This document shows, piece after piece, positions 29,457 through 62,842 of a stretch of DNA of 64,000 nt. How positions within the stretch are numbered: position 1 is the stretch's first letter; the number at the start of each line of letters is the position of its first letter. The notes under the pieces are model-generated. The model made no database searches, had not been told where the DNA came from, and saw only the letters and a list, made by a program, of their open reading frames with translations. Location of the stretch: contig NZ_CP010835.1 of the NCBI RefSeq assembly GCF_001577775.1, positions 62,001 through 126,000 of the forward strand. Direction: 5' to 3'. The stretch comes from Pyrococcus kukulkanii. GTDB lineage: Archaea > Methanobacteriota_B > Thermococci > Thermococcales > Thermococcaceae. The position numbers were made by a program, and so were the translations under genes.

Positions 29457-29804
29457 TTTTTGCTTATTTGTTGTTTATAGATTTTTATTTTTGTCATATT
29501 TCTGATAATTAGTTTCATTGTGCAAAAATTTTTCATTATAGGGGTTCGGAGCTATTGGGTGGAGCCCCCGAATAAGGGGGCGAAAACCCAGGGGTCAAGA
29601 CGGCGGCGTCGGGGGGATTGGGGGCAAAGCCCCCGGCATGAACCCCGCCCTCCTCCCCTGGGTATAGCAAGATGCGCTCCCGAGGAAAACCCCCGAGATG
29701 GGGGGACCCCTCGGGGGCAAGGCAGGCCCGGCACCCCGGTCAAACCCCCGGACGGGGAATTGGTACTCCCCCGCGTGGGGAGTTCCACCGGCCGTACTCC
29801 CTTA
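29457..29804 (+). other. rRNA operon promoter region and 16S leader
   Basis: About 80 AT-rich bases (29457-29540), which must contain the rRNA promoter although I cannot fix a single TATA box, pass abruptly into a GC-rich leader from 29541. The leader holds several strong hairpins (for example GCCCCC/GGGGGC at about 29564-29581) and the 5' half of the 16S processing stem. No coding or small-RNA gene is recognised in it. Confidence 0.7.
29719..29757 (+). other. 16S processing stem, 5' arm
   Basis: 29719-29737 pairs perfectly with 31332-31350 (19 bp), and 29745-29757 pairs perfectly with 31313-31325 (13 bp). Between them GGTC-AAA faces ACT-AAA, a bulge-helix-bulge-like junction for the archaeal splicing endonuclease that would excise pre-16S. 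Confidence 0.85.
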
Positions 29805-31557: not shown

Positions 31558-34609
<3,052 letters not shown>

Positions 34610-56647: not shown

Positions 56648-56739
56648 GAGCATCACCTTAACTGGGCCTTCTTCTTGACCCTTCTATATAAGCCCTTCGG
56701 TTATTTGTTCAAAATTTTTCAAAATATTTGTCAAAAAGC

Positions 56740-56796
56740 AGGTCAGCGAAGGGCGTGGTCATCATCTCCTCAGCAAAGCAAAAGCTCTTCATCCCC
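56740..56796 (-). ncRNA. C/D box guide RNA targeting 23S domain I
   Basis: On the reverse strand: box C ATGAAGA (56792-56786), guide 56785-56774, box D' CTGA (56773-56770), box C' ATGATGA (56765-56759), guide 56758-56747, box D CTGA (56746-56743). The D guide matches 23S 31610-31621 in all 12 positions and predicts 2'-O-methylation of G31614 (D+5 rule). The D' guide matches 31771-31781 over 11 positions and predicts G31774. Ends are estimated. It follows an H/ACA-like hairpin on the same strand by a few bases. Confidence 0.9.
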
Positions 56797-56857
56797 TGTA
56801 GGCCCGGCCGGAACCCCCGGTTCACGATTCCCCGGAGAGGGCGGGAGCCGGGCCCTA
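56794..56857 (-). ncRNA. probable H/ACA-like guide RNA
   Basis: A very GC-rich hairpin on the reverse strand: 56855-56847 (GGGCCCGGC) pairs with 56808-56800 over 9 bp, an internal loop separates it from a short CCGG/CCGG upper stem capped by GGAATCGTGAA, which contains GA/UGA elements that could form a K-loop. ACA follows the stem one base later (56799-56797). A reverse-strand TATA box lies 25 bases before its 5' end. I could not find a convincing pseudouridine target, so the class is probable only. Confidence 0.5.
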
Positions 56858-57996: not shown

Positions 57997-58055
57997 AGGG
58001 ATGATGAATTTTTCCCTCACTCTGAACTGTGATGAGGAGCCGATGCTCTGACCTC
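57997..58055 (+). ncRNA. C/D box guide RNA targeting 23S, antisense to the aglB 3' end
   Basis: Box C ATGATGA (58001-58007), box D' CTGA (58022-58025), box C' GTGATGA (58029-58035), box D CTGA (58048-58051). The D guide (58036-58047) matches 23S 32011-32021 over 11 positions and predicts methylation of U32014. The D' guide pairs 58011-58020 with 32063-32072 over 10 positions and predicts A32066. AT-rich TATA-like sequence lies at about 57966-57986. From 58017 on it is antisense to the last codons and stop of aglB. Confidence 0.93.
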
Positions 58056-60935
58056 CATTAATGTATACTCTTTCTCTGCTATGAACACTGGTTCTACTCT
58101 TATTCCCCTAATTATTAGTCTGTCCTCATATTTCTCCTCTAGCTCCTTCTTATAGTTGGAGATAACTCCTTCAGGCATTTTGGCTTCTGCAACAACTACA
58201 TTGTCATCTCCCTTGTGGAGCTCCACTCCAGACTTAACTTTCGTTGCAAAGAATACATCCATATGGGGTTCAAATGCAGCATCGTAATCACCATTGCTTT
58301 TGCCTCCTTTCCTTGTTAAATATATGAAGGTGACCCGCAAGTATAGGTCTGCCTTGTAATCCTTGTCCACTCCCACTTTTAGTTCAAGTTTGCCAGACTG
58401 TCCCTCTTTTAGTACCTTTATTGGGCTAACTATCTTTCCATTGACTTTTGGTGGTCCAGTTAGGACACCAACAGGGCCTTTTTGAACTAGAGTAAACCTA
58501 TACTTCTCGGCCTGGGGTAGTGTTACATTAACGATTAGGGGAGTCTCGTTTATGTGGCTCATGTACTTAATTTCTCCTATTTTTATCCTTCTAACTTCAG
58601 TTCCATTTATCGCCTCAACGTAGAGTGTGGCGTTTTTAATGTCCCTTCCAAACGCCGAAATGTATAGTTTCAGTGTGTGCTCCCCAGGGAATAAAGTTGT
58701 GATGGTCTTCCAAGTTCCGTTTATTAATTCTTGGAGCTTATAGATGGCAAAGGGCGTAAACTTGTACACGACGACGTTTCCGTATTGGTACACTGGATCA
58801 AAGTTTGAGAATAACTTATCTGTAAACCCTGGCTCTGTTGACGATGGAATTCCATAAGCTAGCTTTACGAAATTGCTACTTGCAACTTTGTAGTATGTAA
58901 CGACGGCAATGCTTGGAAGGAGGTACACAACGTAAGGAAATCTTCCTCCATTATCACATGTTCCCGTTCCTTGAATCTTTCTGTTCCCTGGTATAAATAC
59001 TCCGAGAATGGGGCTACATTCAGTTGACCCAATTTTTACCTTAACTTGGGAGTTGTTTTGGATCTCAATGGAAACCCCCATATATGGATTAATATAATTC
59101 TCTCCAAATCTTGGAACTAAGAATATTGTTGATACTTGCCCTTTTCCTTCTTCATCTCCCTGATATTCCCTTCTTGTTATGGCACCTCCTAAATAGCTAA
59201 TTGCATTGAACTTGGCCCAGTCGTTAAGATACACAATGAAATAATTAAGTTCCCAACTTTCAAAGTCTACCTCGCTAATATTTCCGTCTCTTGCTAGGAA
59301 TAAAGCCAAGATATGATCTCTATCCCTTGCATGCCCACCATCCGCACTAGCCCTTCTGTTCCCCAGTAAGCTTGACTCTATCCAGTACCCATAGTCCCAC
59401 CAAGAAGTGGCAGTTGCATATTCTGAAGTGTTTTCCCTCAACCACTTTAATACCTGTTCCCATCCACTCGTCTCAATTTCCGTCTTGCTCATAGCTTTTG
59501 CCGCTCTCGCTAATATTGGGCCGTGAGTTATTGGAATTAGAAGGATCATTATTGATATAACAATTGCCAGCGCTGCTTTTATTCCTATTCCTTCCTTCAT
59601 TTTTTCGACGATATCCATTGCATATCCTACTGATATTCCAGCGAAGAGCGCTATCGCATAACTCGCTAGGAATAGGAATCTAACAGCTAGGGAGAGTAAG
59701 TAGAGGGACATTAAGTAAAATACAATACCCAGGAGTTCTTTATGTCGACTTTTTCCACTCTTTAGGAGGCCATGAAAGTACGAAGCTATCATAACTAAGA
59801 ACCCTGGGATACTGAGGAAGAATATTAAACCATTAGGCTTCTCTACTCCGTAATATGCCTTTATATCTGCCATCGTTGTCTTTGCGAGCTCTTGGACTGT
59901 TTGATAGACCTGAGTAGATTGATAGGCCCCTCCCATTAATCTAAACAACTTGGGACCAACGTATGCGTATGCCCCCGCAAAGCCTATGAGAACAACGACC
60001 ATAACCACTGCAAATCTATGTTTCTTATCAGAATAGTTTAGGTACTTCCCTCCGTACAGCATTATCACTACTAGCAGGATTAGGCCTAAAAAGACCTCAA
60101 ATGCAAATTTGATAAATCCCTGTATCTTGGATATTCCCGGTATTGTAAGTAGATAAGCTAAGATTAAAATTGCTAGGTAGGCTGGATAGAACTCTTTTAC
60201 AAACCTCTTTACTTCCTCAATTTTACCAAATATAAAGAGTGCTATGGTTTGTAATGATGCAAAACCTAAGAGCACCATCAGTCCAAAGGGCGATCCATTC
60301 CATGCCATTGTTGAAAGACCTGCTGAGGATACGAAAATTATCCCCCAAATTGCTTTTCTCTTAGCGTTGTCTTCGTGAAGGTAATAAAGCAACGAGAGCA
60401 GGGAGAACATAAAAATCATCATAAATGGCCCATCACCTCTTGCGTTTCCAGAGAACGTCCTAGAGAAATTAGCTGTAGATATTGCTAAAATTGCCGCAGC
60501 CCATAACCCTGCCCAGTCATTTAGGAGCTTTCTTCCTAAGAGATATACTCCAACAACACTTAGAAATCCAACAAATGGGGGCCAAAGTAAAAACGCTTGG
60601 AATTCGTTGTAACCAAAAGCTGAAATGATCTTATAAAATATTGCGGGTAAAATGTAGAGCCCTAAAGGTTCGCCAATTAAACTACCAAAGGGAGCCTCTG
60701 CCATTGGATAATATTTTGGCAATCCTTCTTGTAGTACAAGCTTATAAATCTCGAAGTGATAGAAAGTATCTGGATCTGGGAAGTATTTTCCGGCCGTTAG
60801 ATGTCTTATATGAAACCCGTACCATGCAAAAATCAATGTGAGCATAAATGTGATTATAATCCTTATTGCGGGATATTTAGTTGCAAATATTGTCTTTCTT
60901 TCCTTTTCGTTGTCTTTTCCTTTAATGTTGACCAC
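58017..60935 (-). CDS. aglB: oligosaccharyltransferase AglB (STT3 type)
   Basis: Membrane enzyme that moves the lipid-linked glycan onto Asn in N-x-S/T sequons outside the cell. The 972-residue protein has about 13 membrane segments, the first external loop acidic motif FPDPDTFYHFEIYK (metal/catalysis), the hallmark TSWWDYGYW, and a long C-terminal beta-rich extracellular part, as in Pyrococcus long AglB. GTG 60935 follows GGAGGTGA. It lies 12 bases behind glmS, so both are co-transcribed. Its C-terminal codons overlap a guide RNA on the other strand. Confidence 0.95.
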   Translation of the reverse strand: MVNIKGKDNEKERKTIFATKYPAIRIIITFMLTLIFAWYGFHIRHLTAGKYFPDPDTFYHFEIYKLVLQEGLPKYYPMAEAPFGSLIGEPLGLYILPAIFYKIISAFGYNEFQAFLLWPPFVGFLSVVGVYLLGRKLLNDWAGLWAAAILAISTANFSRTFSGNARGDGPFMMIFMFSLLSLLYYLHEDNAKRKAIWGIIFVSSAGLSTMAWNGSPFGLMVLLGFASLQTIALFIFGKIEEVKRFVKEFYPAYLAILILAYLLTIPGISKIQGFIKFAFEVFLGLILLVVIMLYGGKYLNYSDKKHRFAVVMVVVLIGFAGAYAYVGPKLFRLMGGAYQSTQVYQTVQELAKTTMADIKAYYGVEKPNGLIFFLSIPGFLVMIASYFHGLLKSGKSRHKELLGIVFYLMSLYLLSLAVRFLFLASYAIALFAGISVGYAMDIVEKMKEGIGIKAALAIVISIMILLIPITHGPILARAAKAMSKTEIETSGWEQVLKWLRENTSEYATATSWWDYGYWIESSLLGNRRASADGGHARDRDHILALFLARDGNISEVDFESWELNYFIVYLNDWAKFNAISYLGGAITRREYQGDEEGKGQVSTIFLVPRFGENYINPYMGVSIEIQNNSQVKVKIGSTECSPILGVFIPGNRKIQGTGTCDNGGRFPYVVYLLPSIAVVTYYKVASSNFVKLAYGIPSSTEPGFTDKLFSNFDPVYQYGNVVVYKFTPFAIYKLQELINGTWKTITTLFPGEHTLKLYISAFGRDIKNATLYVEAINGTEVRRIKIGEIKYMSHINETPLIVNVTLPQAEKYRFTLVQKGPVGVLTGPPKVNGKIVSPIKVLKEGQSGKLELKVGVDKDYKADLYLRVTFIYLTRKGGKSNGDYDAAFEPHMDVFFATKVKSGVELHKGDDNVVVAEAKMPEGVISNYKKELEEKYEDRLIIRGIRVEPVFIAEKEYTLMEVRASAPHHSSE

Positions 60936-62785: not shown

Positions 62786-62842
62786 TGTGATGATGAGCTG
62801 GATCCGAGCTGATCTATGATGAGGGAGGTTTAACCTGAGCTA
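62786..62842 (+). ncRNA. C/D box guide RNA, target uncertain
   Basis: Box C ATGATGA (62790-62796), guide 62797-62808, box D' CTGA (62809-62812), box C' ATGATGA (62816-62822), guide 62823-62834, box D CTGA (62835-62838); spacing is textbook. Neither guide has a convincing rRNA match here: the D' guide finds only a 7-bp core at 23S 32952-32958 and the D guide an 8-bp core (AAACCTCC) in 16S near 30165. tRNAs or other RNAs outside the window are possible targets. It is divergent from glmS and antisense to the 3' end of the protease gene from 62814. Confidence 0.88.

Follow-up and report, generated by a model that had tools for sequence, protein, structure and literature searches.

A dual-guide C/D box sRNA gene lies antisense over the 3′ end of aglB in Pyrococcus and probably accounts for the C-terminal tail of AglB

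A stretch of 64,000 nucleotides (nt) of the genome of Pyrococcus kukulkanii (assembly GCF_001577775.1, contig NZ_CP010835.1, positions 62,001 to 126,000 of the forward strand), hereafter the window, harbours a C/D box small RNA (sRNA) gene that covers, on the opposite strand, the last 39 nt of the oligosaccharyltransferase gene aglB. The sRNA is very probably a housekeeping dual guide, and the C-terminal tail of AglB a by-product of a sequence that is held by the function of the RNA. The same kind of overlap was found a second time in Thermococcus, on an unrelated gene.

The search with cmscan revealed a match to RF00095 (snoPyro_CD) at positions 57997-58054 of the window, on the + strand, over the full length of the model (53.9 bits, E 1.7e-8; the curated gathering cut-off is 45 bits). 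The four boxes C, D′, C′ and D are all canonical, and the two guides pair in register with 23S ribosomal RNA (rRNA), which bears out the four perfect boxes and two 23S guides described in the initial annotation. The gene and its elements are as follows.

57997..58054, + strand: C/D box sRNA gene, RF00095 snoPyro_CD (cmscan and homologs in 51/94 Thermococcaceae genomes)
58001..58007, + strand: box C, ATGATGA (sequence; kept across homologs)
58008..58021, + strand: D′ guide (58010-58020 pairs with 23S 32063-32073)
58022..58025, + strand: box D′, CTGA (sequence; position 2 covaries with C′ position 5)
58029..58035, + strand: box C′, GTGATGA (sequence; homolog comparison)
58036..58047, + strand: D guide (pairs with 23S 32010-32021 over 12 nt)
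58048..58051, + strand: box D, CTGA (sequence)

As a family RF00095 is broad, and the P. kukulkanii genome (single contig, 1,977,126 bp) contains 32 matches to it. Box order, size and kink-turn elements of the sRNA are like those of the family and nothing differs in the RNA itself; what sets it apart from the other members is its location over aglB. A literature search on the family name returned nothing but a software paper, and no published sR number was found for the sRNA. Most archaeal C/D sRNAs mature out of longer transcripts (PMC7994747), and therefore the sRNA need not possess its own promoter. Its upstream flank is not conserved among the eight Pyrococcus genomes compared. A conserved leader coming from the lipoprotein-like neighbour on the + strand was considered and rejected, since this neighbour is located beside the sRNA in only 4/8 of these genomes.

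The duplex of the D guide with 23S rRNA comprises 12 nt, eleven of them in Watson-Crick pairs and one in a G-U pair, and that of the D′ guide 11 nt, with ten Watson-Crick pairs and one G-U pair. The fifth guide nucleotides (N5) fall on U32014 (23S position 455) and A32066 (23S position 507), respectively. Among 1000 shuffled D guides, four matched rRNA in register equally well or better.

32010..32021, + strand: 23S site for the D guide (U32014 predicted to be methylated)
32063..32073, + strand: 23S site for the D′ guide (A32066 predicted to be methylated)

The proteins of archaeal C/D ribonucleoproteins (RNPs) are L7Ae, Nop5 and fibrillarin; with them the sRNA would direct 2′-O-methylation of both nucleotides, and it may also aid the folding of that 23S region. 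Since archaeal C/D RNPs methylate the target opposite the fifth guide nucleotide (PMC4644070), 2′-O-methylated U (Um) and A (Am) are predicted at U32014 and A32066. The two sites are 52 nt apart; the initial annotation, which gave a spacing of about 50 nt, was right on the target coordinates and on both nucleotides. According to Lui 2018 (cited in PMC7994747), most rRNA-targeting dual guides hit sites <100 nt from each other, as is the case here. RiboMeth-seq data of P. furiosus are deposited as GSE153501 (PMC7758197).

On the opposite strand, the window encodes an AglB that closely matches the solved Pyrococcus AglB domains. As previously annotated, the sRNA crosses the aglB stop codon, which lies inside the D′ guide.

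58017..60935, − strand: aglB, oligosaccharyltransferase catalytic subunit, 972 amino acids (aa) (Pfam STT3, OST_IS, OST_P1 and OST_P2)
58017..58019, − strand: aglB stop codon TGA, inside the D′ guide, with the A of the stop opposite guide position N5 (58017)
58020..58052, − strand: AglB tail VRASAPHHSSE, antisense of the sRNA, Pyrococcus-specific

The sRNA was found over the aglB end in 8/8 Pyrococcus genomes with a complete locus, and in all eight AglB ends with the tail V[RS]ASAPHH[SG]SE, encoded by the strand opposite the sRNA between box D and box D′. AglB of five other genera (42 genomes) ends about where the sRNA would begin, and has no Pyrococcus-type tail. In Thermococcus (genus g3, 21 genomes), the last residues of AglB are WEG or the like, followed by no more than one further residue; in the other four genera, the 21 loci that extend to the aglB stop encode the ending EKEYVIYEG or a close variant. 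Among the genomes compared, the tail is peculiar to Pyrococcus, where the sRNA overlaps the gene. We suggest that the sRNA became placed at the aglB 3′ end, in opposite orientation, in the Pyrococcus lineage and that the old stop was lost. The aglB reading frame would then continue across the complement of box D, of the D guide and of boxes C′ and D′ as far as the TGA in the D′ guide. The tail itself may be of little consequence for AglB.

The 39-nt overlap was compared with the preceding 42 aglB codons (126 sites) in the eight informative Pyrococcus genomes. Invariant sites make up 34/39 in the overlap versus 52/126 just upstream (Fisher p 3e-7). None of the six fourfold sites varies in the overlap versus all six upstream, and where the residue is invariant, the codon itself is unchanged in ten out of eleven cases in the overlap versus 0/21 upstream. 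The five variable sites of the overlap correspond to three sites in the D′-C′ spacer, the purine of box C′, and guide position N1; two of the changes alter AglB (R to S, and S to G). Selection on the RNA dominates, because all five variable sites are ones that the sRNA tolerates, and by this comparison the sRNA, not AglB, is the constrained party in the overlap. The initial annotation had expected the shared stretch to constrain the evolution of both genes. The overlap is indeed constrained, but not symmetrically: the RNA dictates the tail, which changes only where the RNA can. The alignment of aglB 3′ ends proposed there gave boxes and guides conserved across Pyrococcus, the reverse of boxes lost while AglB residues are kept. 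Of the 32 RF00095 matches, only the one over aglB reaches deep (38 nt) into a long antisense open reading frame (ORF) from its 3′ end. Other matches overlap antisense ORF 3′ ends by 10 nt in two cases and by 2-3 nt in several; the ORFs in this count were called mechanically, and small ones may not be genes.

The distribution of the sRNA was analysed with a covariance model built from 22 sRNAs, chosen by patterns containing the motifs. The invariance of these 22 is partly due to that selection, and therefore the matches of the covariance model are a fairer sample. Homologs were detected with the model in 51 of the 94 Thermococcaceae genomes, belonging to 4/6 genera; no copy was found with it in genus g4 (13 genomes). 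Most homologs are located far from aglB. The sRNA lies over aglB in Pyrococcus only, and in the other genera over another gene or over none. Among 43 distinct sequences, C′ position 5 and D′ position 2 form the combinations U-U (25), C-C (11), G-C (5), A-U (1) and U-C (1, in a decayed copy). The sheared G-A and A-G pairs and the G-C pair of the C′/D′ motif are kept with one exception. This covariation of the C′/D′ motif argues for a functioning RNA.

The second overlap was found in 21 Thermococcus genomes, in which the sRNA lies antisense over the end of a membrane protein of about 168 aa that is unrelated to AglB and gave no Pfam match. The 19 genomes with an intact sRNA encode the tail VRASAP[HRP]HxSE followed by a stop, read in the same frame as the AglB tail. 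Homologs of the membrane protein without the sRNA end with RRGYKKRK or similar, and then stop. In genomes G040 and G028, a TAG is located directly before the sRNA, in frame with the tail. These two look pre-capture, because loss of their TAG gives the extended protein, and their arrangement of a stop against the sRNA is apparently an intermediate. Most genomes of genus g4 also possess membrane-protein homologs, and the matches stop before the tail. Genome G020 harbours a second copy of the sRNA (L050:1472-1530), which overlaps a truncated version of the membrane-protein gene (77 aa, tail included); this would fit a joint duplication of sRNA and gene end.

The sRNA of genus g5 overlaps the end of a membrane-protein homolog by 4 nt, and in Pyrococcus no match to the membrane protein was found. 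Based on the Thermococcus overlap, the contact in g5 and the missing Pyrococcus match, the ancestral location of the sRNA was probably beside the membrane-protein gene; its position at aglB would have arisen in the Pyrococcus lineage, either because the sRNA moved or through a rearrangement. A single inherited context for both tails was rejected, since Thermococcus AglB lacks the tail and Pyrococcus gave no match to the membrane protein. Both proteins are extended in the antisense frame of the sRNA that reaches a TGA in the D′ guide after eleven codons, and the other two antisense frames of the sRNA in the window, as read by eye, are open to or through box C. The use of the same frame twice need not imply a function of the peptide, because a short tail would be the mildest outcome of stop loss.

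Two results weigh against a guide RNA with a by-product tail. The first is the D′ guide, whose match alone is within chance and not significant: it is pyrimidine-rich, and 101 of 1000 shuffled D′ guides matched rRNA in register equally well or better. For this reason the D′ guide rests on comparison and not on statistics alone. The D′ core TTTCCCTCAC is present in nearly all genomes picked by the D half alone, and the reverse search from the D′ side likewise recovers the matching D half in nearly every case. It could further be argued that boxes and guide matches are coincidental inside a coding sequence, as C/D boxes are short and a match such as that of D′ can arise by chance. This is extremely improbable, given the Rfam match above the cut-off, the homologs at unrelated loci, the frozen synonymous sites and the covariation of the boxes.

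The second result comes from the membrane-protein tail, which outlives a damaged sRNA in two Thermococcus genomes. In G041 (L173:3006-3057) and G056 (L132:1473-1529) the boxes of the sRNA are damaged, and the tails VRISAPRHWSE and VRVSAPPHHPE remain, slightly changed. The tail could have some value, or the decay could be merely recent. Together with the near invariance of the AglB tail in Pyrococcus, this persistence would agree with a tail that is itself the selected element and from which the guide-like sequence follows. We nonetheless regard this as very unlikely, since selection on the peptide leaves the frozen synonymous sites of the overlap unexplained and the sRNA also exists without any overlapping protein. 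Moreover, a PDB construct that we take to be P. furiosus AglB ends with SASAPHH, which would mean a shorter tail there and predicts that the stop is located in the D′-C′ spacer.

Overlaps of this kind have been described in related organisms. In Thermococcus kodakarensis, 16 out of 17 antisense small nucleolar RNAs (snoRNAs) cover gene 3′ ends (PMC4247193), and the aglB locus has the same arrangement. C/D sRNA genes overlapping ORF ends are common, with 25% of the surveyed genes overlapping a 3′ end (Tripp et al. 2017, reviewed in PMC7994747). Similar to those cases, the aglB sRNA carries the stop codon of a neighbouring gene; however, the sRNAs of Tripp et al. carry the stop of the upstream gene, whereas the aglB sRNA overlaps and lengthens a convergent gene on the opposite strand. 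In view of both reports, the sRNA and its arrangement are of a known kind. The passage on these snoRNAs in PMC4247193 describes neither a protein end created by an sRNA nor a tail shared by two unrelated proteins, and no report of repeated capture of an sRNA as a protein tail was found in open-access papers, supplements aside. The locus would be a clean natural case of an RNA gene turned coding on the opposite strand for two unrelated proteins, with the same tail, and suggests that proteins can be lengthened by RNA genes under strong constraint. AglB of Pyrococcus has been studied structurally, and the locus is also a warning that conservation at its C-terminal end probably reflects RNA rather than protein function.

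The T. kodakarensis snoRNAs over 3′ ends also raise the alternative that the sRNA is mainly, or in addition, a cis-antisense regulator of aglB that alters 3′-end termination, stability or processing of the mRNA. Complementarity to the aglB mRNA is full over 39 nt and conserved in 8/8 Pyrococcus genomes. Even so, regulation of this type is unlikely: the sRNA and its two guides are also conserved at loci away from aglB, the association with aglB is not kept wherever the sRNA occurs, and the boxes and guides explain the conservation, the free sites being those that are free for a guide RNA.

A housekeeping guide might still act on the mRNA in another way. Both 23S target sites have a copy at the end of the aglB mRNA (AGCAUCGGCUCC and GUGAGGGAAA), and N5 of the D′ guide (58017) is opposite the A of the UGA stop codon. 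On these grounds alone we considered that the small RNP might also 2′-O-methylate the aglB mRNA, with the D′ guide placing a methyl group on the A of the stop, although we hold this to be decidedly improbable. If true, methylation of the stop codon would be a possible handle on termination, and mRNA methylation would hold for the Thermococcus membrane-protein mRNA too. The locus is a natural setting in which to ask if mRNAs bearing copies of the targets of a guide RNP can be modified by it.

Other RNA genes were also present in the window. The H/ACA sRNA Pab19 (RF02794) is located at 29564-29666 (+ strand), about 140 bp upstream of the 16S rRNA gene; Tko-19 of T. kodakarensis is in the same place and is probably cotranscribed with the rRNA operon (PMC4247193). 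The C/D-type RNA snoR9 (RF00065), at 56730-56855, lies 1.2 kb from the aglB sRNA on the other (−) strand, and part of it (56740-56796) also matches RF00095. The C/D sRNA sR49 (RF01303) was detected at 62786-62840 (+ strand) with 67 bits.
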